Source of the DNA: Asterias amurensis
Lineage: Eukaryota; Echinodermata; Asteroidea; Forcipulatida; Asteriidae
Reading direction: 5' to 3'
Assembly: GCF_032118995.1 (NCBI RefSeq)
Contig: NC_092666.1
Span: 5,220,501-5,284,500 of the forward strand
Length of the DNA: 64,000 nt
The position numbers were made by a program, and so were the translations under genes. This document shows, in pieces, positions 45,938-60,798 of this stretch. Each line of letters begins with the position of its first letter. Position 1 is the first letter of the stretch. The notes under the pieces were generated by a model that did not search any database, was not told where the DNA came from, and saw nothing but the letters and a program-made list of their open reading frames with translations.

Positions 45938-46921
45938 TTAAATAATTTCTCTTATTTTCATGCTACATTTCTGGAGAGAATATTTCCATCCTGTCCAATC
46001 TACCCACTGTATTCCATCAGTTTTCCTAATATTCCCAGAACTGAAATATTTACCATTGAGGTGTGCGCGGTAGCATGAAACGAACCACCATCCGCCCCCG
46101 TGTTGTATTGGACAGCCTGGTGACGAATCATTATCTTTTGTTGAGAATGGTTGGAGATTGTGTTCTGCCATTGAATCACCTGCTGAGCTGGCGGCATCGT
46201 ATGAACCAACATGGAGAGTGTACTTATTACCTAATACAGCAAACTCATCATAACTGGCCCAAGCTGTGATTCCGTCCCAATCAGTCATGTCTACCTTTAA
46301 TCGCCATTGTCCTGACTTAGTTAGGTCACGTAGGATGTCATTACCCAGCCAGAACTCAGTGGAGAGATCACCAAACCCAGATTGGTACTCTGCCCAAGTG
46401 CGGTCAAAATCACCAGAGCCATCTTGTCTCCTCTGGAACACGATCCAGCCTCCTCCATCTGTCTCCATATCACAGTAGACCTTCACTCCATCAGTCAGAC
46501 CAGCAGGGTAGATGGTGTAGATGCCACTCTCAAGGTTGCCAGCCTGGTATAGCTGCAGACAGCTACTTAATTGTCCACTTAATTGTACAGAGTCTGGTGC
46601 TGAAAGTGAAGGAGTTTCCAAGTTGCCATCATAGTAAGCAACTCCTTGCAGCTCAATGAAGTCATCGGGGCTTTGAGATTGAGAAGCATTGCTCAACTGA
46701 CAAACATGGTTACTCATGTAGTAGTTGAATGATGCACAGTGTGGATCCATAGAGCAGTCTCGCCCACAGATCACAGGAGATGATACAGTCTTCCATTTAA
46801 ACACATGATTTAGTAGGACTTTGTTGCTTGCTGGATACAGGTTTGATTTGACTCGTTGTCGACAATCACCATGACAATAATGTATCAAGCAAGCCAGGAA
46901 CAAAATTATGATAACTTTCAT
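45938..46921 (-). CDS. Secreted PAN-fibrinogen-domain protein (FReD lectin-like)
   Basis: Single-exon 327-aa protein, ATG at 46921 and TAA at 45938. Residues 1-18 form a signal peptide (MKVIIILFLACLIHYC). Residues 20-97 are a PAN/apple-like module (VICGRDC, DPHCASFNYY, HVCQLSN). Residues 118-327 are a fibrinogen-related domain: SCLQLYQAGN, VYCDMETDGGGWIVFQRRQDGS, TEFWLGND, with expected disulphides Cys121-Cys150 and Cys270-Cys283 and the calcium-loop TKDNDS at 262-266. Proteins of this type (ficolin, tachylectin-5 and other FReD relatives) commonly bind acetylated sugars in invertebrate immunity; the ligand here is not shown. A paralogue lies at 49588-50555. The lack of introns in a gene-rich split landscape is notable but not rare for this family. 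Confidence 0.9.
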   Translation of the reverse strand: MKVIIILFLACLIHYCHGDCRQRVKSNLYPASNKVLLNHVFKWKTVSSPVICGRDCSMDPHCASFNYYMSNHVCQLSNASQSQSPDDFIELQGVAYYDGNLETPSLSAPDSVQLSGQLSSCLQLYQAGNLESGIYTIYPAGLTDGVKVYCDMETDGGGWIVFQRRQDGSGDFDRTWAEYQSGFGDLSTEFWLGNDILRDLTKSGQWRLKVDMTDWDGITAWASYDEFAVLGNKYTLHVGSYDAASSAGDSMAEHNLQPFSTKDNDSSPGCPIQHGGGWWFVSCYRAHLNGKYFSSGNIRKTDGIQWVDWTGWKYSLQKCSMKIREII

Positions 46922-49587: not shown

Positions 49588-50555
49588 TTAGATAATTTCT
49601 CTTATTTTCATGCTACTTTGCTTAAGAGAATATACCCATCCTTTCCAGTCTATCCACTGTATTCCATCAGTTTTCCCAATTAACCCGTAATTGAAATATT
49701 TACCATTGAGGTTTGCATGATAGCAAGCAAGGAACCACCAACCACAAACTTGGTTGCACAGTCATCAGTAGAATCATTATCTTTTGTTGAGAACGGTTGG
49801 TCATTGTGCCAAGTCAATGAATCCCCAGCTGAGCTGTCTGCGTTATAGGAGCCAACATGGAGAGTGTACTTATCACCTGATACAGCAAACTCATCATAAC
49901 TTGCCCATGCTGTGTTTCCGTCCCAATCAGCCATATTTACCATTAATTGCCATTGTCCTGAATCAGTAAGGTTACGTAAGATGTCATTACCCAGCCAGAA
50001 CTCAGTGGAGAGATCACCAAACCCAGATTGGTATTCTGTCCAAGTACGGTTAAAATCACCTGAGCCATCTTGCCTCCTCTGGAACACGATCCAGCCTCCT
50101 CCATCTGTCTCCATATCACAGTAGACCTTCACTCCATTAGTCGGGCAGACGGGGTGTATGGTGAAGATGCCACTCTCAAGGCTGCCAGCCTGGTATAACT
50201 TCAGACAACTACTAAACTGTTCAGAGTCTGGTGCTGAAAGTGAAGGAGTTTCCAAGTTGTCATCATAGTAGGCAACTCCTTGCAGCTCAATGAAGTCATC
50301 AGGGCTTCGAGATTGAGTAGCATTGCTCAACTGACAAACATGGCTACATGTGTAGTAGTTGAATGATGCACAGTGTGGATCCATAGAGCAGTCTCGCCCA
50401 CAGATCACAGGAGATGATACAGTCTTCCATTTAAACACATGATTTAGTAGGACTCTGTTGCTTGCTGGATACAGGTTTGATTTGACTCGTTGTTGACAAT
50501 CACTCTGACAATAATGTATCAAGCAAGTCAGGAACAAAGTTATTATAACCTTCAT
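49588..50555 (-). pseudogene. Second PAN-fibrinogen-domain gene, frameshifted near its end
   Basis: Paralogue of 45938-46921. The frame begins at the ATG at 50555 (MKVIITLFLTCLIHYC); the longer frame upstream opens only with GTG. Signal peptide, PAN module and most of the FReD domain are intact, including DMETDGGGWIVFQRR and STKDNDS. Around 49750, just after CATK, the frame slips by one base relative to the paralogue and stops at 49680 after 291 aa. The homologous C-terminal residues (GGWW-type motif, NGKYF, TDGIQW, MKIREII) are still readable in the next frame to a stop at 49588-49590. It may be a young pseudogene, a functional truncated protein, or a sequencing error. Loss would remove the second Cys of the last disulphide and the C-terminal part of the ligand-binding region. 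Confidence 0.75.
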
Positions 50556-50639
50556 GATGAACAATGAGCATAATAACATCAGAATTAATAGCTGGTTAGG
50601 CACAACTAGAAGGCCGCACCCAACAGATTATTGTAACCG

Positions 50640-53600
50640 TTAAAGACAGTTGCCGTAACTGGCGTGCGGGATTGGGTGTATATTTTCCGCATTTGTAATA
50701 AAAGTTTCTGTTTATATCAAGCAGTTCATTCGATCAACAATACCAGTGCATTAAAACAAAATGGAGTCCATTAACTCAACCGCTTGGATCGTAACAGTAA
50801 TTAAGACAATTCTCAGCTATTTGCTCTTTATAAAGGCTTACACACTGCTTAATACCAATTGACTTCGCATTCAAACCACCATAGTCACGTCACAGCTACA
50901 TCCCCAGTAGCTTAAACAGTTACCATGACAGTTCACAATTGAGGCATAATCATCTTGTTGACTGCTTTTCACAAAGCCTTTAAACTGATTATATTTTGGA
51001 GTCTGTTATACTTAGCGCTGAATGCATCCTTGGATTGAGTTTATTGCAAAAAACAGGCCCTTGGCTTTCATCAAGAGCGACCTCTCTCTTCTGTATCGAT
51101 GGTTAAACCTCTTATGGTCATCCTTGTGTACCAGTTTCGGCCTCTAGTATATAATTGCATCTTGCTGTAAACAAATCTATTAGATATTGATCGGGACTTT
51201 ATCAGTTATTCGTTAATCCAATGTGGTTTGGTCTGTTGTGTCAGAAACCATGCAACCAAAGAAGCTTTTACGATGCCGACGGTATTGAAATTCTTAATCA
51301 AACTGATATGTAGAACAATCCAGAGGCAGGGCGAAAATGAAGGACCAGTTTGGAATCCGCGTACGCATTCAATAGACCTTATGCATTGACGTCATCCAGC
51401 CGCCATCTTAGAGCTAAAACGGTGACGAAACAATCGAGACGCACAGATTTGTACGCACGGCGCACAGTATCGGCCAATGAACAACCTCCTTTTGACCTCT
51501 AGGTGAGGGCGCCCTACTGAAATGTTGTCATGTGCATAAGGTTTATAGACAGCGATTCTGTGACGTCACACGTTGACATGTAAACACAGTTGCTGATGGC
51601 TTCTGCAGCTTTCGACGACTAGATCAAGCTAGTCGAAACGTTGAGACCGATTAAGAACTCACTCCGCGTCAGTGAAGTTAATTAAAGAGAAGTCCCTTTG
51701 ATCCACGAAAGTAGTCCCGGTCGATTTCGTATCCTTCCGCCCAGGTGGTACGTAATAAGCTTTTCAGGACTAGTCTCCCGAATTCCAAAATGTACTCCAT
51801 GCGGCAGTAGAATGAATAGCAAGACAAGTTATTAAGAGCAAATTTACACAGCAAAGTTACCGCAAAATGAATAACACCTATCGTTGAAGTTGACGTAACG
51901 CAAAATACACCTTGTCGTTGCTCATAAAAAGAGCAGGCCTCAAAATAATGCGCAGCATCTGCAGCAATTGCTGTTGTGCCCTGTGTTTTTGCCGTAGTGC
52001 CCAGTTGCAAAAGACTAGTGCAAATCCAAATTGTCCTCATAGACGTTCCCCTTTTATACCAGAGGAAAATTGCTGTGCCCCTTCAAGAGCGAACTTGGAC
52101 TCTGGTATAAAGCTATACATTGTGATACATTATGTCTGAGTGCGTTGCGATAGATTGAATTGTAATGTACACTAACCTTGGTTTAGTGCGGCATTGAAGC
52201 TAATTATTGACTGCATGAATAGCGGCTGTCAGAGTTTGATATTATGATATTGCCTCCTTGGCTAGTCATTAGGTGATGAAAGGAAAGTATTGATCATACT
52301 GTAAATTGTTTTCTGTGTATTTATCAACGCTCGCCTGACTTTCTAGGACGAAACTGTCAGGAAATGTTTTCTTCTTTGTCTGGGTTTTCTTTTGTCTGGG
52401 TTTTTTTTTCGTTGTCGTAATTATCTTGTGTTGATAGTTAAAGGCAAGGTATACGTTTGGCAATCACTTTGAAAACGAAAGAGCAATACAAATCCATCGT
52501 AAGGAGCCAACATTAGACTGCAGTCGTGTAAAAAAAATGTCAGTTTTAATTGCCCATTTTTTGAATAATAGAAGCGCTACTGCAGTTCATACTAGAAAAA
52601 AAAGGGTTAATTCTTTGAAATGATTCCTTTTGAAATAAAGTTATATTCTAGAAAACTGTATCTGAAAAATAACCTTTAAAAAAGTCACAGGTTGATTTGG
52701 GTTGTTGCAACCAAAATTAATGACAACCAATATGTCCATAATGATGTTCAAAGGGCTTTTGCTGATAAATGTGTTTGGTTTTTCACTATTTTCACACAAC
52801 TCACACACCAGATTAAAGCAATCGCACAACATCGGTTAACAGTATTGTCCAAGGCCCACACTTCGTGTATCACAACTTATATATAAAATAACAAATCTGT
52901 CAAAATTTAGGCTCAATCGGTCATCGGAATAGGGAGAAAATGACGGGGAAAACCCACCCTTGTTTCCGCACGTTTCGCCGTGTCATGACATGTGTTTAAC
53001 ATAAATCCGTTATTCTCGATATCGAGAATTGATAACTGTTTTAATGTTTTCTCAAAAAGTAAAGCATTTCACGAAATAATATTTCAAGGGAAGTCTTTTA
53101 CCATTACCCTCTGTAAACCCTGTAAGTTATTTGGAAATCTGTGAACTTTTATTTTTTGTTCTGTTCAGAAAGTGTCTAATGGCTTTAAGCCTAAATTTGG
53201 ACAGGTTTTTTAATTCATTTTAAAAAGTTGACCACACAAAACATTAACACTATTGTGTCAGCTCTACACCAATCCTGTGTTCCACTTTAAACTAAGCTCA
53301 TTTCCATTCCCCAGAAAGTACTCTCATAGTATCAACTGTCGACGTTCATTTTGTTAATGTCGGTGATATCGCAACACGAATTAGTGAAGAAGGGATATGT
53401 ATCACACGGTCGATCAAAATTATTAGGCCCTTTTCGAAACCACGGCTTCGGCTTTGGATTCGGCTCAGGCTAGCTTGGCATATTGCGTATGCTGTGCATA
53501 CGCGCTCGTGGTTTCAGACGAGAGGACGGAGCCTCAAGCCGAATCCAAAGCCGAAGCCGTGCTTTCGAAAAGGGCCATAGACTTGCTCAGTCTCTCTGAG

Positions 53601-54606
53601 GCAGCATCCCAAACAGACGACGTAGCGCCTTCCATGGGTGACTGATAATAAATATAAAAAAGTGTGGCTAATTAAGACTATAGTACTCAATGTTTAACAG
53701 CACTTTTAAGGTTGCTTGAGCGGGTATACACCATGCGCTATATTAGTCTCACCAGAAAACTAAAACAACTGGAGACAAAAATTACAAGAGGACAGTTGAA
53801 TTTACAGGAAATGAACTTTGCCATTTTTATGTTCGATGATTCTAGCATTCCAGTTCCCTTTTAAATAATATTATAGCATTTGTGTTAAACTATACACCTT
53901 TTCATTATGAACCTGAATAACATATTACCTCCACCAAATTCTAAGTATAATGCCAATCAAACCATCAGCTCGGGTTCTATTTCTAATGTTATTATGGATA
54001 TGTCTACAAAAAAATGAAGTTTGCTGCCACCTAGTGCCTGAAAACATCCAACTACTTATACTTTCAAAAGAAAGAATCATATACATGTACCGGTATTGTT
54101 TGTTATTTTCACCCTCCCTTTGCTTACCCACCGGTCTGCAGCCAGAAATCCAAAAATATATTTTAGTCTATATTTTAGTTTATATTTTAACTTCCCTTTT
54201 TTTTGGGGGGGGGGGACAGTTGAAACCCTGTATAGTCCATGATCCTCAGACAGGCCCGATCGACCTGGCTTATATGTCCCCTAGGCAGTATGACTCATGG
54301 ACCACGAATCTCCAATTAGAGAACTTTAAAAAAAAATGTTATAGGCCTGGAGTGTTTGTGAACAATTCAACGAGATTCCCTTAAGACAGCGGACCAGTCC
54401 GTGTTGTAAAAAGCCCAGCGTGTAACAATTACCTTGCTCTGGTCACAGTTTTTAAGTGTAAGACGCTTTAGGCAGTATGACTCATTGACTCGGAATCTCC
54501 AGTTAGAAAACACTTTCTACATAGTATAGGCAGTTTACAGTGAAGGAACAGTGTAAGCACATACTAATAAACATAAAAACCAATTAAAAACTACTATTTG
54601 TAATGC
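50640..54606. other. Intergenic DNA, no gene recognised
   Basis: About 4 kb with short ORFs only. A TTAA-bounded element or pair spans about 52438-53188 (TTAAAGGCAAGGTATACGTT at the left, GTCTAATGGCTTTAA at the right). A hairpin element is at 53426-53577. GCTGCCACCTAG at 54022, also seen at 3588, 20707 and (minus) 28381, belongs to another dispersed repeat. Confidence 0.5.
53426..53577. mobile_element. Short hairpin element with AAGCCGAATCCAAAGCC arms
   Basis: Left GGCCCTTTTCGAAA then CACGGCTTCGGCTTTGGATT; right AATCCAAAGCCGAAGCCGTG then TTTCGAAAAGGGCC. The arms are nearly perfect over about 40 bases. No ORF of its own. Confidence 0.7.
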
Positions 54607-57600
54607 CTACATTGTCATATTTTTGGGTATTTCTTCTGATTTGTTTCGATAAACGACTCGTTCTATCTGTCTTTGTTTGCGATATTTCTCAAGAATATCA
54701 CCACTGTCATCATCACCGCTTCCCGATTCACCGATGTAAATATCCACTCGACTCTCTGACAACTCACTCTGCTGTTTCAACCAATAGAGGGCGCCCAAGT
54801 ACCCATCTACTGCCCTCACCGTCGAGTCGGGAACTAGCAGAACGTCAGCGGATGACTCATCAAAAGTGATAATTTTATCGAGTTTTTTGTACAGGTTTTC
54901 CTGGAAAGCGTTCATTTCATCCAGCATGACCATTAGACGTTGGATACCGAAGGCAAACCCAGTAGAGGGCACAGCGGTAATATTTTTGTGGTGGTTACTT
55001 GAGTCTTTGATGAAATGTCCAACAAGCTTGTTGTATCTTCCGCCTCCGGCAATCTCTAGGAAACGTCTGCTGCCATCTACGACATCAACCTCGAACGAGA
55101 AGTGTGTGTAGTACTCGTGGGATCGAACCACACATAAATCAACCACAACCTCGAACCCATGTCTGGTCAAACCGAGAGAAATATCCTCCAAATCGTCAAA
55201 AAGCGGTTTGTAGTTTGGGGAAAACTCAGCGCGAAGTTTGGCGTCGACTTCACCAGTGGTGTGATGTAACATGGCATCCCAAGACGTAATTTCCTGCTGG
55301 TTGAGGTTGTACTTGTTCAAGACATTCCAGAAAGCCCTCTCGTTGTCTTCTACGCAGCCTGACTCTTTCTTCGCTCTGCATTCTGCAATCTCATCCATCG
55401 CCTCCTTCACTCGAATAGTATCAAGATGACTAATTTCAGAGTCCTTCACAAGTTGTATGAGAATCTGCACATTACTAATTCTGAAGACTATCTTACCCTT
55501 GGGTATCCCTACTGCCTCTAGCATGTCACCAAGCATGCATATAATCTCTACATCAGCTCCAAGATCCTGCGCTCCAAGAATCTCAACTCCGAACTGATCA
55601 AACTGACGTTTCTTTCGTGAAGACAGCGTGTCGGTCGGTTCATTCCTGAAGCATGGGACATTGTAAAAGATCTTGATTGGGAAGGTAATATCATCCTTAT
55701 CTGCTATTTCACGACCAAGCCAGCGAGCGGCAGACAGAGTTCCTTCTGGGATAAGAAGAACTGAGGTCGTCTCTAACTTCTCAGTAAAACCCTTCGCATA
55801 ATCCTGGATCTCAAAGAAGAAGCAACCTCTAGGATCCCACTCGGGCCATGGTGAGAGCCCAACAACATCTTCAGCAAATGATGTCGACCTCTCTACAATT
55901 GGGACCAGCAATTCCTCAAAGCCGTACCTTAAAGAAACTGCCTCCAAATTTCCTGACAATGCTCGGAACTTGCGTCGTTGTAGTCCGAATATATCTTCCA
56001 TCCCAACCACAGGTGTGTTTTGTACATTATCAGACAGTGGTTCTATGACCAGTTTCTGATCGAGTGTCTCTAGGAGATACTCTGACACTTGTATTGCTTC
56101 CTGATCTGATATCTCACTCTGGACCATAAAAGAGCCAAGTAGAAATGGAACTGCTTCTTCCGGTCCATTTACCCTTTGACCTCTAATAACCATCACTTCC
56201 GTTTCTATCACCCTTGTATCTTGCGCAATGCCTTCCAGAAAGGTGTTGTTCTTGACGATACCCGAAAACTCTACGTTGATGTAATGGGTTGTTATGTACC
56301 TTGGATTGACAATTTCATCATCAAGGATTCCCTTGTTACTAAGATCCTCTACTTGCTCACCCAAAGCAATCTTGAAGACCGACTCTAAGAGATCAACACC
56401 ATACGCAGCTTTAACCGTGTGCCTGCTCTTAAGCCCGGGTAATCTGGCGTTGATCTCAATCAGATGGGGGCGATCTCCGTCCATAATCATCTCTACATGA
56501 AACACCCCATCCGTCAGACCAACTTGGTTACAAGTAGCTACAGCAAACTCCGCCATCTTTTTCTGAGTTATTTTATTCACACTAGACGTCGGTATTGTCA
56601 TGGTTTTCTCCTGGAACCATGGGGCCGTCCCAACTGTGTTCAAAGTAATTGCAGCAAATTTCACTACTCCTTTCTGCATAATAACATCAACATCATATTC
56701 CTTACCCGTGACATATTTCTCAAGCATCAGATCAGTGTTCCCCTCAAAATACAGTTTCTCTGCGTCCACACTTCTCTGTAGTTTTGTATATACCTTAATT
56801 AGTTCAGATTTCGATTGTAGAAGGAGAGTTGATAATGACCCCACTCCGGATACGGGTCTTACAACAGCCGGGAATCCAACAGCTTCAGCTGCACTATCTA
56901 AATCAGCATAGGATGAGATTCTCTTTAAGGGGACGGTGCTTTTTATAAGAGACTTCAAGACAACTTTATCACGAACATTTGCAAACACCTCAGGATCAAG
57001 TGTTGGTAATCCTGCTTTCTTGGCAGCGGTAGCAACAGCAATAAGATAACGGTCCATGTTGGTAGTCACACCTGAGAATTCAATCCCAGATGTTGTGAGG
57101 ATATCGTAGATTTCTTTGGATAGTTTATCAGCCGTGCCGTGCGTGTCTACTGTGTGAACTGTGTAGATTTGTTTAGTCAGAACCAATCTCTCAACCCAGT
57201 GGCCTTTCTGCTCAGCTACGCTTATGTCAATCTCCACAGTCTGCGCCACATCATACATGTACTCATACCATGACTGGTTCCAGCCTCCACCAACAAGCAA
57301 CAGATGCTTTCTCTTCAAGACTTTCTCCTGCTGGTCCGGAAGCCTTAACGCCATTGCAACTAACAAAACCACAACACCAAGAAGAAGTAATCTTTCAATG
57401 GTAGACTTTGGTGGTGGTTTTGGAGTCGGTTTAAACAAGTAAACATAGTAATCGACCACTTTGTTGGTAAAAGGCTCCACATCTCTGACTGTACCTGGTT
57501 GCTTCTGGAAGCCTACACTCGTAGCGACAGCTAGACTCTTAGCATTCTTAGGGCCAATATGGAGTATAAAGCGCTCGATACCAATAGCCTGCCCGTACTC

Positions 57601-57990
57601 AATCAGCTTCTTACAGCTCTTGCTGCACAATCCATTGCCCACCTTATCCGCTCGTAACCAATACCCCATATCTGCTGTCATGGCTGGGACATTGATGGTC
57701 CTCAGACTAACAACACCAAAGACATCAACTTCTCCTTGATCATCCTTCCCATAAATCACACAATGCAGACCATTCCCATAACTTTCTTGCGCCATCGCTG
57801 ATTTGATGAAGTCGGCAGAATCTTCAACCTTCTTTACTTCAGAGACCCATGGTAGATATGGACCGAGGGTAGCTCGGCTTTGATCCACAGCTTGAAACAA
57901 TGCACTTGCGTCTGTTTCCTTCACTGGGCGGATGAATACCGTATCTCTTATCGCCATTGGGAAATAGCGAGCTACCTGAAGCGAATCCAT
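54607..57990 (-). CDS. GNAT acetyltransferase - membrane segment - ATP-grasp ligase - HisRS-like fusion
   Basis: One uninterrupted frame of 1127 aa on the minus strand; ATG at 57990, TAG at 54607-54609. Residues 18-185: RimJ/RimL-type GNAT (IRPVKETDA, VGNGL acetyl-CoA loop at 117-121, NAKSLAVATSVGF). Residues 197-216: a hydrophobic segment (LLLLGVVVLLVAMAL), one membrane anchor. Residues 230-550: ATP-grasp ligase of carnosine-synthase/PylC type (GFPAVVRPVSGVGS, LEKYVTGKEYDVD, HVEM, IEINARLPG with Glu512 and Asn514 as metal ligands). Residues 663-1025: histidyl-tRNA-synthetase-like class II core: PEGT 748-751, motif 2 Arg782, Gln799 and Glu803, Arg956 in VVRSHEYYT, GGGRYNKLV from 982, motif 3 Arg1018 in GFAFGIQRL. 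Residues 1046-1120 resemble an anticodon-binding fold. Likely makes or modifies a histidine-containing amide; inferred, not shown. The frame extends upstream only without ATG and into a splice acceptor. Confidence 0.85.
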   Translation of the reverse strand: MDSLQVARYFPMAIRDTVFIRPVKETDASALFQAVDQSRATLGPYLPWVSEVKKVEDSADFIKSAMAQESYGNGLHCVIYGKDDQGEVDVFGVVSLRTINVPAMTADMGYWLRADKVGNGLCSKSCKKLIEYGQAIGIERFILHIGPKNAKSLAVATSVGFQKQPGTVRDVEPFTNKVVDYYVYLFKPTPKPPPKSTIERLLLLGVVVLLVAMALRLPDQQEKVLKRKHLLLVGGGWNQSWYEYMYDVAQTVEIDISVAEQKGHWVERLVLTKQIYTVHTVDTHGTADKLSKEIYDILTTSGIEFSGVTTNMDRYLIAVATAAKKAGLPTLDPEVFANVRDKVVLKSLIKSTVPLKRISSYADLDSAAEAVGFPAVVRPVSGVGSLSTLLLQSKSELIKVYTKLQRSVDAEKLYFEGNTDLMLEKYVTGKEYDVDVIMQKGVVKFAAITLNTVGTAPWFQEKTMTIPTSSVNKITQKKMAEFAVATCNQVGLTDGVFHVEMIMDGDRPHLIEINARLPGLKSRHTVKAAYGVDLLESVFKIALGEQVEDLSNKGILDDEIVNPRYITTHYINVEFSGIVKNNTFLEGIAQDTRVIETEVMVIRGQRVNGPEEAVPFLLGSFMVQSEISDQEAIQVSEYLLETLDQKLVIEPLSDNVQNTPVVGMEDIFGLQRRKFRALSGNLEAVSLRYGFEELLVPIVERSTSFAEDVVGLSPWPEWDPRGCFFFEIQDYAKGFTEKLETTSVLLIPEGTLSAARWLGREIADKDDITFPIKIFYNVPCFRNEPTDTLSSRKKRQFDQFGVEILGAQDLGADVEIICMLGDMLEAVGIPKGKIVFRISNVQILIQLVKDSEISHLDTIRVKEAMDEIAECRAKKESGCVEDNERAFWNVLNKYNLNQQEITSWDAMLHHTTGEVDAKLRAEFSPNYKPLFDDLEDISLGLTRHGFEVVVDLCVVRSHEYYTHFSFEVDVVDGSRRFLEIAGGGRYNKLVGHFIKDSSNHHKNITAVPSTGFAFGIQRLMVMLDEMNAFQENLYKKLDKIITFDESSADVLLVPDSTVRAVDGYLGALYWLKQQSELSESRVDIYIGESGSGDDDSGDILEKYRKQRQIERVVYRNKSEEIPKNMTM

Positions 57991-58014
57991 TTTGGAAGAT
58001 GTGTCACACGACGT

Positions 58015-58033
58015 CTGAAAAGCCAAAGAAAAT
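58015..58033 (-). promoter_or_regulatory. Probable 3' splice site upstream of the fusion gene start
   Basis: Read on the minus strand, TTTTCTTTGGCTTTTCAG directly precedes ACGTCGTGTG and the ATG 26 bases later. It is a pyrimidine-rich acceptor, so the coding exon probably begins here with a short leader or a few upstream codons, and a 5' exon lies further upstream. Confidence 0.55.
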
Positions 58034-58054
58034 GAAAACTAGTCTTCATTACAA

Positions 58055-58275
58055 CGGTTAAAAGTATTCACACGACAAATATAACGGTGGTCCCTGATTA
58101 ATTTTAGCATGGTTGTAAAATGTAGCACTTGTTTGAAAGGATGTTACAAGAAACCCTTGACAGTACACTAATTGTTGTCCTTTCACACGAAGTACTTTTT
58201 TTATGCAATAACCATGCTAAAATTTAGCAAGGGAACCTTGCTAAATGGCTCTCGTGTGAAAGTGACTTTAGTGTT
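58055..58275. mobile_element. Inverted-repeat element, family L
   Basis: Ends TATTCACACGACAAAT and GGCTCTCGTGTGAAAGTGA are approximate inverted copies. The interior carries TTTAGCATGG and CCATGCTAAA. Relatives are near 23825-23915 and 40891-41090. Confidence 0.55.
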
Positions 58276-58356
58276 AAAGTGGGATTAATAGTAACAACAG
58301 TGATTGAAGGTAGGGTCATTTTGGTAAAAACTTTCAGAATTTCCGTAAAATTTTGG

Positions 58357-58744
58357 TTAAAGGCAGTGGACACTATTGGTAATTGTCAAAGATTATAACC
58401 TTCACAGTTTGTGTATTTCAACATATGCAAAAAATAACAAACCTGTACAAATTTGAGCTCAATCGGTCATCGAAGTTGGGAGATAATAATGAAAGAAAAA
58501 ACACCCTTGTCACACGAAGTTGTGTGCGTTTAGATGGTTGATTTCGAGACCTCAAGTTCTAAATCTGAGGTCTCGAAATCAAATTCATGAAAAATACCTT
58601 CTATCTCGAAAACTATGGCACTTTAGAGGGAGCCGTTTCTCACAATGTTTTATACCATCTGCCTCTCCCCATTACTCGTCACCAAGTGAGGTTTTATGGT
58701 AATAATTATTTTGAGTAATTACCAATAGTGTCCACTGCCTTTAA
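58357..58744 (+). mobile_element. TTAA inverted-repeat element, family A (near-complete)
   Basis: TTAAAGGCAGTGGACACTAT to ATAGTGTCCACTGCCTTTAA, TTAA on both sides, central arms GATTTCGAGACCTCA and TGAGGTCTCGAAATC intact. A family C-like end (TTAAAGTGATAGTACACG) starts at the same right TTAA. Confidence 0.88.
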
Positions 58745-59848
58745 AGTGATAGTACACGTTTGGTAGTCTCTCTTCAAACTAATGACAGTAACAACAGTTC
58801 GATTAGAAGCCTTTCGATAGATAAAGCATTTTGAGAAACATTTCACTTCGAAATAATGTGGTTATGTAAAACGATGAAGGTTTTTATGCCCCAAAATTGA
58901 ATCTGAAATTGTGTAGTGCTATTCAGTTGGTATCATTTCTACGTGGACATAATTCGCTTTGAATTTTTTTGGGAGACTTCAAAATGATTATGTTTAATGA
59001 TGTTAACCTGAAGCCATCAGGTGCTGGAAATCTTGGTGTAGTATAGGCTATAAAATAATATTTGTCGGGCTTCCTCTTATGGCTTCTACGAGGTAGGAAG
59101 GATCAGACAATCATATTCTATATCTATGGTGCATGCATGTGCCGTAGAAATCAAACCGGGAACGCTGCGTGCTTATTTGATGTACGCGTTTAGACGCGCA
59201 TACGATTTGCCCTATACAAGATGGCGAATTTCATGCAAAAAAAAGGTTATTCAGCTGAAACATTTGGTGTACCTTTCTATGATGGTGCTTTCTTTAATGA
59301 TACATGTGCTTTCTGTCAAACTCAATGCAGAATTATAATGTACACGAAAGAGTAGAATCGCACGAACGCATCTTTCACTTTAAAAATTCCTTGTCAGAAT
59401 TTATCAACTGACATCACACTTTGAGGCTCGTGATACGCAAGAAAACTGGCTTAGCTTAACACGTCAGGATCCTTCCAAATGCACCTTTGACCTCAATTCC
59501 TTTCACATTGAGATTCGCAGTGAAATCCTACGTATATGCATGCATATAAGAACAACATAGCACAATTATGCATGTTAATATAATACAATACAATCATAAT
59601 GCTCGCTGCAAGCAGACGACCGAAAGTGCATGCTGACATCACAGATATGGAAAGCTTACGTCACTGTTATCCAATGAAATCACTGTATCCAATGAAATCA
59701 TTGGGTCTGTAATACGAGTGTCTGTCCAAAGACAGGCTGGGGACCAGTCTCAGAATAGACTTGGTTCCATTGTAACGGGAGATTGGCGGCCCCCAAACAA
59801 AGAAATATTTTAAGAAATTGTGTCTGATAGCACCCGCTGTTGAATCTA
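58745..59848. other. Intergenic or intronic DNA, no gene recognised
   Basis: Begins with a decayed family C-like stretch to about 58970. No coding exon is recognisable. It may be part of the 5' intron of the fusion gene. Confidence 0.45.
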
Positions 59849-60798
59849 CGGAAGCGTATATAGGACATACCGAGAAAAAAAATCGGGCTCCACTATTTCG
59901 CCCGGGCGGATAACTAATTCGCCCGGGCGGATTACTATTTCGCCCGGGTGGTTTACTATTTCGCCCGGGCGGATTACTATTTCGCCCGGGCAGATTACTA
60001 TTTCGCCCGGGCGGATTACTAATTCGCCCGGGCGGATTACGAGGCCGCATGTTTACACAGGGCTACATGTATGATTTCACTTTTACCTTAACAAACATCA
60101 CCGGATAAAAGTTCTCTTGAACCCCTTCCAGCCTCCTTTTTCTCCTTCAACCCCCCCCCCCACTCCGATTATCAATCAATCAATCAATTGTTAAATTTAT
60201 AAAGCGCTAATCCAACAATCGTTGCTCATGGCGCAGTACAGTAGGCTTTTGAAAAAAGATGAGATGATTTCAACGAAAATGGTATTTTTACTTGATAATA
60301 ATGCACTTGTTCACCATTTTAATGTAATTTTGATATGTGTACACTTCTGAAATTTTTGTAATTATCGACTAAAAAATCAGGCCCCAACCTAAGGTTGTGA
60401 AAAAACTTAAAACACATCTGCCGTTGACGGCGCAAGTCAAAGGACAATGCCGCTGACGTCATGTCTGGGAGTTTGCTTTGTTCTCTAGTTGATTAGTGGT
60501 TTGCCTCTACGCTTCAACAAAAAGTCGGGGAGCTTATGACCAAAAATTAAGTCCCGTAGAAAATAAATGATTAGAACATGCCACCTGGCTAGATACCTAA
60601 ATAAGACTCTCAGGAACTAGAAAACCATGTTGGCCATCTTGGATTTCAAAATGGGCGCCGAAATAGTAATTACGCCCGGGCGAAATAGTAATCCGCCCGG
60701 GCGAAATAGTAATCCGCCCGGGCGAAATAGTAATCCGCCCGGGCGAAATAGTGGAGCCCGATTTTTTTTTCCGGTATGTCCTATATACGCTTCCGTAT
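59849..60798. mobile_element. Complete foldback element (CGCCCGGGCG family)
   Basis: Both outer ends are present: ACGGAAGCGTATATAGGACA at the left (59849) and TGTCCTATATACGCTTCCGT at the right (60798). Just inside are ATCGGGCTCCACTATTTCGC and GCGAAATAGTGGAGCCCGAT, then 21-bp units of CGCCCGGGCGGATTACTATT: about seven on the left arm (to 60040) and four inverted on the right arm (from 60660). The core of about 600 bp has no ORF that looks real and includes a segment shared with 22935-23040. This copy defines the full element. Confidence 0.88.

Follow-up and report, generated by a model that had tools for sequence, protein, structure and literature searches.

HisZ is a non-catalytic paralogue of histidyl-tRNA synthetase (HisRS), the HisRS-like part of Gcn2 binds uncharged tRNA, and the acetyltransferase MccE is partnered with a PLP enzyme. 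According to PMC2922099, paralogues of tRNA synthetases serve in non-ribosomal peptide synthesis, and PMC4335047 presents Gcn2 as a HisRS relative employed as a sensor. Here, a gene of the sea star Asterias amurensis is described in which an acetyltransferase (GNAT) domain, a predicted membrane helix, an ATP-grasp ligase module and a HisRS-type core are joined in one frame. The gene lies in a window of 64,000 nucleotides (contig NC_092666.1, positions 5,220,501 to 5,284,500). A literature search for this fusion architecture found nothing.

Gene structure and domain organization

The frame runs on the minus strand from the ATG at 57990 to the TAG at 54607-54609 and encodes 1127 amino acids without an internal stop. 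The longest stop-free frame of the window has 1143 codons; the maximum in 20 shuffles (two-base blocks) was 168 codons. The following features were assigned:

54607-57990, minus strand: complete coding sequence, 1127 amino acids plus stop, single coding exon
58015-58036, minus strand: probable 3' splice acceptor of a 5'-UTR intron, a pyrimidine tract followed by CAG at 58017-58015, proposed from sequence comparison
57421-57990, minus strand: GNAT domain, residues 1-190 (Pfam 19-162), Ser152/Glu172 aligning with RimL and MccE
57340-57402, minus strand: predicted hydrophobic membrane helix, residues 197-217, from hydropathy and the structure model
56071-57306, minus strand: ATP-grasp module region, directly before the ATP-grasp/HisRS linker
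56011-56070, minus strand: ATP-grasp/HisRS linker, residues 641-660
54901-56010, minus strand: residues 661-1030, a class II core of the HisRS type in which motifs 1-3 and HisA/HisB-like motifs are present
54610-54900, minus strand: C-terminal 97 amino acids at the position of the HisRS anticodon-binding domain, without a family match and poorly modelled

Pfam identified Acetyltransf_3 at residues 19-162 (6e-18), ATP-grasp_4 at 372-518 (6e-17) and tRNA-synt_His at 664-1019 (3e-23). The top hydrophobic segment, residues 197-215, lies between GNAT and ATP-grasp with a mean hydropathy of 2.33 (3.07 in the paralogue) and came out helical in the structure model. If this helix spans the membrane, the GNAT domain would be on the opposite side from both ATP-using domains. 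A sequence-only reading had proposed a single frame with four parts in this order, which is borne out by the ORF, Pfam and hydropathy.

The AG-ending tract is located 24 bases before the ATG, and similar tracts are present 26 and 17 bases before it in the copies on contig C5. Downstream of the stop, the nearest poly(A)-type signal was only found at 1,392 bases. No Rfam family scored above threshold at 53000-60500, PADLOC gave no match, and one acetyltransferase family was matched in PHROGs. The genes adjoining the fusion include Fibrinogen_C/PAN, and no pathway hint was found among the neighbouring animal genes. Read with genetic code table 9, contig C23 of the same genome (16,427 bp, first 10 kb examined) contains full-length mitochondrial frames, and table 5 gives frames of equal length; nad1/nad2 are inverted relative to cox1, as in the asteroid order. 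Both the neighbouring genes and this mitochondrial contig support the earlier assignment of the fusion to an animal.

Copies of the fusion and selection

Another chromosome carries a further intact copy, 78% identical and with its modules in the same order, and a third copy is broken. Between the intact copies, dN/dS was 0.20 overall (1111 codons). By module it was 0.097 for the HisRS core, 0.178 for ATP-grasp and 0.416 for GNAT, and the highest value among the modules, 0.471, was obtained for the C-terminal 97 amino acids. As judged from these comparisons, the fusion is intact and kept by purifying selection in two copies. Because the paralogue pair is intact, the fusion appears to be maintained by selection and to be no passing accident. 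A chimera or pseudogene was rejected on the basis of dN/dS and the further intact copy; the view that the gene is no decayed chimera and has its catalytic motifs thus held, with the catalytic residues largely kept.

The GNAT domain

The GNAT domain is of the RimL/MccE type, with RimL, MccE and YdaF as best solved relatives and MccE as the nearest. Ser152 and Glu172 align with S141/E160 of RimL and S553/E572 of MccE, and this general acid and general base pair is retained in all three copies. No other loci of the GNAT family were matched in the genome. The adenine-stacking residues of MccE, as reported in PMC4964394 (where the printed T453 was interpreted as Trp from the aligned chain), line up by eye with W48 and F61. 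For the alignment of RimL-type proteins, 12 bacterial regions were fetched and one without a match was left out, which gave 11 bacterial rows besides the three sea-star copies. Since W48 is found in 14/14 and F61 in 8/14 of these rows, the two residues are not diagnostic. Their use as proof of an adenylate substrate was dropped, as W48 is present in 11/11 bacterial rows.

The ATP-grasp module

The nearest relatives of the ATP-grasp module are bacterial L-amino acid ligases (BL00235, BacD), and PylC is a weaker match. The L-amino acid ligase 3vot was the top phmmer match and, with the AlphaFold model, also the top Foldseek match (E 7e-26, TM 0.87 on target). The sequence-only reading had called this module carnosine-synthase/PylC-like. 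The ATP-grasp ligase fold was confirmed, but 'bacterial L-amino-acid-ligase-like' seems the better label from the comparison with BL00235, BacD and PylC. When 30 of the 80 bacterial ATP-grasp loci were aligned, K342, E424, E500, E512, N514 and R516 agreed with all 30 relatives. Position 378 is Arg here and Lys in 30/30 relatives, while position 346 is Lys here and Arg in 29/30, a reciprocal swap that could lower ATP-grasp activity. No match to LAL_C2 (PF18603) appears among the Pfam results at E<=1; the domain was detected at 1e-5 in three of five bacterial ATP-grasp proteins scanned and is therefore not universal. No other PF13535 locus was matched in the genome at the sensitivity of the tool.

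The HisRS-type module

Nine charged residues of E. coli HisRS (D13, E47, E83, R113, E131, D141, R259, E270 and R287), taken from a list in PMC8558854, were scored. All nine are kept in both copies, compared with four of nine in the HisZ control; the equivalent of R259 is Arg956, where the HisZ control has Gln. The HisA loop reads SHEYY here versus GLDYY in E. coli HisRS, motif 3 is GIQRL, and the motif-2 Arg121 is replaced by Lys793. The module scored 151.4 bits with NCBIfam hisS (cut-off 286.75) and 112.3 bits with hisZ (cut-off 271.65), both below the cut-off. The AlphaFold model of the HisRS core matched T. cruzi HisRS 3hrk in Foldseek (E 2e-20). No Pfam family was matched in the last 137 amino acids, so that the core is complete but an anticodon domain is not recognisable, and the model has pLDDT <50 at the C-terminal end. 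The 'full class II HisRS-like core' proposed before stands as a complete core with its charged residues.

The branch of the module is very long (7.9 changes per column), the best full-length HisRS comparison gave 28% identity, and a 14-row HisRS tree failed to place the module, with 8/11 inner branches open and long branches flagged. The genome also contains a separate multi-exon HARS on contig C4. As assembled from exon matches, and thus possibly with errors, this HARS scored 30-48 bits against the fusion and 218 bits against a Bacteroidota HisRS. A recent derivation from the animal's own HARS was rejected, based on the multi-exon structure of HARS on C4 and its score of only 30-48 bits.

In a whole-protein structure alignment the HisRS rows were misplaced onto other regions, and the two halves were therefore modelled separately, with ATP-grasp sequences from 30 of the 80 loci and 10 HisRS rows from 14 IMG/VR loci. 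The GNAT model, made without relatives, and the C-terminus are of low confidence.

Searches for the same architecture

With the whole protein as query, 16 of 50,697 phage records matched, 16/16 inside one module. In plasmids, 425 of 72,556 records matched; in no record was 80% of the query covered at a single site, and none of the 40 matches listed spans two modules. The whole protein had no relative in IMG/VR, and the ATP-grasp alignment found one there. In genome_contigs the same alignment, used as a single pattern with which misses are possible, identified 423 relatives, of which the best 80 have 24-34% identity. The surroundings of 84 loci (80 from genome_contigs, three plasmid and one viral; flanks of <=10 kb, shorter at contig ends) were searched at E 1e-3 for matches to either the GNAT or the HisRS part, and 84/84 gave none; this search also missed annotated GNAT-fold genes of another type in two loci (L009 and L010).

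Prokaryote genomes were searched in sets of 5, 398, 396 and 340, which amount to at most 1,136 different genomes because three genomes of the first set come up again as centres. Among the matches listed, none extends beyond its own module into the main part of a second one; in the three larger sets at most two candidates were scored per genome in the rows listed, and in the sets of 396 and 340 matches are listed only at E<=1e-30. The same architecture, for which bacterial genomes had been suggested as a place to look, was thus not found in these genomes or among the best 80 of the 423 ATP-grasp relatives. No donor of the modules was found in the phage, plasmid, IMG/VR and prokaryote genome searches.

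Eight bacterial relatives were examined beyond the domain. In five, an MFS transporter adjoins or is fused to ATP-grasp, and two of these five also adjoin GNAT-fold genes; for the other three, the ligase frame alone was scanned. These settings suggest synthesis of small peptides and their export.

Possible function and origin

The reading we favour, though tentatively and at somewhat less than an even chance, is that the sea-star protein is a working amino-acid ligase, a single chain tethered to a membrane, which would activate histidine or an analogue, form an amide and acetylate an amine. The HisRS-type core would bind ATP together with histidine or a near analogue and form an aminoacyl-adenylate. 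As no anticodon domain is recognisable, tRNA is probably not charged. The ATP-grasp domain, like BL00235/BacD, would phosphorylate a second carboxylate and couple it to an amine. The RimL/MccE-type GNAT would acetylate a free alpha-amine, either that of the amino acid or that of the adenylate or dipeptide, and the product to be expected would be a small histidine-like amide, N-acetylated and formed at a membrane. Step order, substrate and product are guesses. In favour of this reading are the Pfam and Foldseek matches, the low dN/dS, the key residues mostly retained in three active sites and the MFS and GNAT-fold settings of bacterial relatives. Counting against it are the Arg378/Lys346 swap, the altered HisA loop, the GIQRL motif 3 and Lys793, the very long HisRS branch, the poly(A)-type signal as far as 1,392 bases away, the GNAT opposite the ATP-using domains if the helix spans the membrane, neighbouring genes without a pathway hint, and the 84/84 bacterial, plasmid and viral loci with no GNAT or HisRS match. 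The SHEYY loop makes histidine itself less certain as the substrate. A role of the modules in building and capping a small peptide at a membrane, as suggested earlier from the DNA, remains plausible. Searching the literature on echinoderms for metabolites of the histidine type yielded no relevant title.

The HisRS-type module might instead be a non-catalytic sensor or scaffold that regulates ATP-grasp and GNAT, like HisZ or the Gcn2 part. Its very long branch, altered HisA loop and motif 3 and unrecognisable anticodon end would fit such a role, as would the sensor use of a HisRS relative in Gcn2 (PMC4335047). However, the nine charged residues kept in both copies, as opposed to four and a Gln for R259 in the HisZ control, and the strong constraint on the core (dN/dS 0.097) argue against this role, and we regard a sensor as unlikely, if still worth weighing. 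An extra HisRS with accessory domains that charges tRNA would agree with the complete catalytic core, but the separate multi-exon HARS, the last 137 amino acids without a Pfam family and the 28% identity in the best comparison make this very improbable.

That MccE is the nearest solved GNAT, with stacking residues aligning by eye with W48 and F61 (PMC4964394), could also point to detoxification: aminoacyl-nucleotide antibiotics or stray aminoacyl-adenylates would be acetylated by the GNAT and bound or edited by the remaining modules. These residues are not diagnostic, however, and there is no evident use for an ATP-grasp ligase, which renders detoxification improbable. The intronless coding region, the broken third copy and the absence of any poly(A)-type signal in the 1.39 kb after the stop might be taken as signs of an assembly artefact, bacterial contamination or a pseudogene. 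Given an intact copy on each of two chromosome-scale contigs, purifying selection, adjoining animal genes and signals that resemble splice acceptors, this is hardly credible.

If the gene does encode a single-chain ligase, it may be a previously unrecognised animal route to a small capped peptide: a compact non-ribosomal peptide machine in one animal gene, for a chemistry so far mostly bacterial and fungal. It would also add a HisRS case to the tRNA synthetases recruited away from translation. A more specific proposal, possible but on balance doubtful, is that sea stars possess a non-ribosomal amide synthetase of a type not described before. In it, a module derived from HisRS would feed histidyl- or analogue-adenylate in cis to ATP-grasp and GNAT, and an N-acetylated histidine-type metabolite would be made at a membrane without tRNA or carrier proteins. 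Microbial transfer, or a build-up of the fusion out of transferred genes, is likely, since the modules are more similar to prokaryotic families than to the other loci found in the genome. The fusion offers a well-defined protein that can be tested and that exists naturally in two variants.

Comparison with known systems

The GNAT domain shares the catalytic Ser and Glu pair with RimL, MccE and YdaF, but the partner of MccE is a PLP enzyme, whereas here the partners are an ATP-grasp ligase and a synthetase core. Most ligase active-site residues are common to the sea-star ATP-grasp and BL00235, BacD (YwfE) and RizA. The solved chains of these ligases have 388-471 residues and no other modules, whereas the sea-star module is fused to GNAT, helix and HisRS core, has the Arg378/Lys346 swap and is without a LAL_C2 Pfam match. 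ATP-grasp domains of about 29-31% identity are located C-terminally in longer proteins in Burkholderiales (L152, an MFS / cyclic-nucleotide-binding / ATP-grasp fusion) and Elusimicrobia (L148 and L149, ~1630 amino acids). The membrane part of L152 is of transporter type, the N-terminal part of L148/L149 matches no recognised family, and none of the three has a GNAT or HisRS Pfam match at 1e-5.

With HisRS/HARS the fusion has in common a class II core with 9/9 of the charged residues tested, but it differs in its unrecognisable anticodon domain, altered HisA loop, fused state and distance from the animal's own HARS. HisZ, the control, loses catalytic residues, whereas the sea-star module keeps them. 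PMC2922099 describes LysRS-MprF and fungal AspRS-MprF fusions, VlmL, mycothiol ligase and CDPS, in which, likewise, a synthetase module has left translation and is fused to, or acts together with, a ligase or a partner of the GNAT fold. In the class II cases presented there, aminoacyl-tRNA is passed to an MprF-type GNAT-fold ligase, whereas the sea-star protein combines an ATP-grasp ligase, a RimL-type GNAT and a HisRS-type synthetase.

Frame and domains of the fusion gene

In a frame scan of the window, 1127 codons without a stop were found on the minus strand from 57990 to 54607, where the sequence-only reading had claimed one long frame, and stop-free frames in 20 shuffles of the window reached a maximum of 168. 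The claimed GNAT, ATP-grasp and HisRS-type domains were all recovered over their cut-offs by Pfam.

Pfam domains of the fusion protein
Residues 19-162, Acetyltransf_3 (GNAT), over cut-off
Residues 247-330, ATPgrasp_N, slightly below cut-off
Residues 372-518, ATP-grasp_4, over cut-off
Residues 664-1019, tRNA-synt_His, over cut-off

The expected membrane segment corresponds to residues 197-215 between GNAT and ATP-grasp, the top hydrophobic segment (mean hydropathy 2.33; 3.07 for the corresponding segment of the paralogue). AlphaFold models were built with relatives gathered in the same analysis. In one model (mean pLDDT 75.6) the ATP-grasp part was confident, residues 197-215 formed a helix and the GNAT part was of low confidence; the HisRS core gave mixed confidence (mean pLDDT 59.0), with the C-terminal 94 residues below 50. 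Foldseek identified the L-amino acid ligase 3vot (TM 0.87 on target) as neighbour of the ATP-grasp model and the trypanosomal HisRS 3hrk as neighbour of the HisRS core.

Gene copies, selection and genomic setting

The fusion is a genuine animal gene maintained by selection. A second intact copy of 1116 aa, 78% identical to the window copy, is located on contig C5, and a broken third copy, in head-to-head orientation with it, is ∼26 kb away:

G000:C5:10430215-10430988, minus strand (L003/L093), GNAT followed by the beginning of the ATP-grasp part, with one stop

For the intact pair (1111 codons), the Nei-Gojobori method resulted in dS 0.643 and dN 0.128, a ratio of 0.199, which together with the second copy bears out that this is not a decayed chimera. 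By region, dN/dS was 0.416 for GNAT, 0.34 for the membrane region, 0.178 for ATP-grasp, 0.142 for the linker, 0.097 for the HisRS core and 0.471 for the C-terminus. A pyrimidine tract ending in AG precedes the ATG by 17-26 bases in all three copies, and therefore a non-coding first exon probably lies upstream of the coding exon. Downstream of the stop in the window copy, the first poly(A)-type signal comes after 1,392 bases.

The window lies on contig C19 (15.8 Mb) of the 491.5 Mb assembly (23 contigs). Contig C23 (16,427 bp) is mitochondrial, with long table 9 frames and nad1/nad2 opposite cox1 in the initial 10 kb; because its frames are equally long under table 5, its assignment to an asteroid rests on the gene order, which is that of asteroids. 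Adjacent frames to the fusion gene encode fibrinogen-C/PAN proteins. Additional features of the window were observed:

45938-46921 and 49680-50603, both minus strand, single-frame fibrinogen C-domain and PAN pair, 4-8 kb from the fusion gene
∼58352-58745, ∼400-base repeat directly upstream of the fusion gene, with copies 80-90% similar near both C5 copies; it looks like a MITE-type element
∼59890-60040, minus strand, short tandem repeat whose unit is rich in CCGCCCGGGCGAA, within a 127-aa frame that looks spurious

Origin and prokaryotic relatives

In profile searches of the sea-star genome, PF13535 was found in the two intact copies only and PF13302 in the three copies only; beyond the fusion copies, PF13393 was found only in one exon of the multi-exon HARS on C4. 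Candidates were scored exon-wise and only the best were kept, and therefore divergent or intron-rich relatives may be missed. The HisRS part scored at most 111 bits with rows grouping with Rhodobacter HisRS, 91 bits with haloarchaeal-group rows, 89 bits with Listeria-group rows and 30-48 bits with the animal's own HARS. With so few HisRS rows, and such divergent ones, no donor can be named.

The search for the same architecture yielded the intact C5 paralogue. Searches of phages, IMG/VR, plasmids and prokaryote genomes (for the last two, among the matches listed) did not recover the fusion, nor did it occur at the best 80 of 423 ATP-grasp relatives in genome_contigs. These 80 bacterial ATP-grasps are 24-34% identical to the fusion. 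In five of the eight relatives inspected outside the ATP-grasp domain (L009, L010, L011, L152, L153) an MFS transporter is fused to the ligase or lies beside it; the ligase frames of L148, L149 and L151, scanned alone, gave no transporter model at 1e-5. GNAT-fold genes near the ligase in L009 and L010 are of the FemAB/Acetyltransf_6 type, not RimL. In Mycobacterium triplex (L153), an MFS/cNMP protein is encoded separately, adjoining the ATP-grasp gene. In Elusimicrobia, the ligase forms the terminal part of a ∼1630-aa protein (two genomes translated), and seven of the ten matches listed sit in open frames of 1595-1639 codons; the long N-terminal part in L148 and L149 matched no Pfam model at 1e-5.

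Longer bacterial proteins ending in the ligase
L148:4521-9410, minus strand, and L149:159-5060, plus strand, Elusimicrobia ∼1630-aa proteins with C-terminal L-amino-acid-ligase ATP-grasp
L152:2135-5326, plus strand, Burkholderiales MAG, MFS transporter, cyclic-nucleotide-binding domain and ATP-grasp ligase fusion

Catalytic residues and possible function

Nine charged residues are conserved among the HisRSs considered in PMC8558854, and both intact copies have all nine, identical to E. coli; one HisZ (a HisRS paralogue) in the same alignment kept four (R113, E131, D141, R287). Some true HisRS rows have Asp at two of these nine positions, E83 and E131. The equivalent of E. coli R259 is Arg956 in the fusion and Gln in this HisZ, Lys793 replaces Arg121, motif 3 reads GIQRL and the HisA loop is SHEYY versus GLDYY. 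ATP-grasp residues K342, E424, E500, E512, N514 and R516 are the same in 30/30 aligned bacterial relatives; position 378 is Arg in the fusion and Lys in all 30, and position 346 is Lys in the fusion and Arg in 29. For GNAT enzymes, the available part of a review gives RimL S141/E160 and MccE S553/E572 as general acid/base (PMC4964394). Ser152/Glu172 of the fusion align with these and are kept in all three copies; bacterial rows have Ser in 11/11 and Glu in 7/11. Across the modules, catalytic residues are largely kept, as had been claimed.

The HisRS-type core would form an aminoacyl-adenylate, the ATP-grasp module an amide, and GNAT would acetylate an amine. These three activities would fit the build-and-cap role that had been proposed, which is the likeliest account of how the enzyme works; what the sequence shows is the residues, and substrates, step order, product and cellular side are inferred. 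The chief alternative is a HisRS core that acts as a sensor; its long branch and altered HisA loop favour this reading, and its retained catalytic residues and strong constraint count against it. A membrane-spanning helix would separate GNAT from the ATP-using domains, which is a puzzle; therefore a re-entrant or peripheral arrangement, or a lumen containing acetyl-CoA, is to be considered.

No description of the domain combination was found in open PMC full text, including the accessible parts of PMC2922099 and PMC2824669, and the fusion may be undescribed in print; orthologues are probably present in other sea-star databases. The use of tRNA-synthetase paralogues in non-ribosomal ligation, GNAT-fold ligase fusions included, is a known theme, as set out in the available part of PMC2922099.
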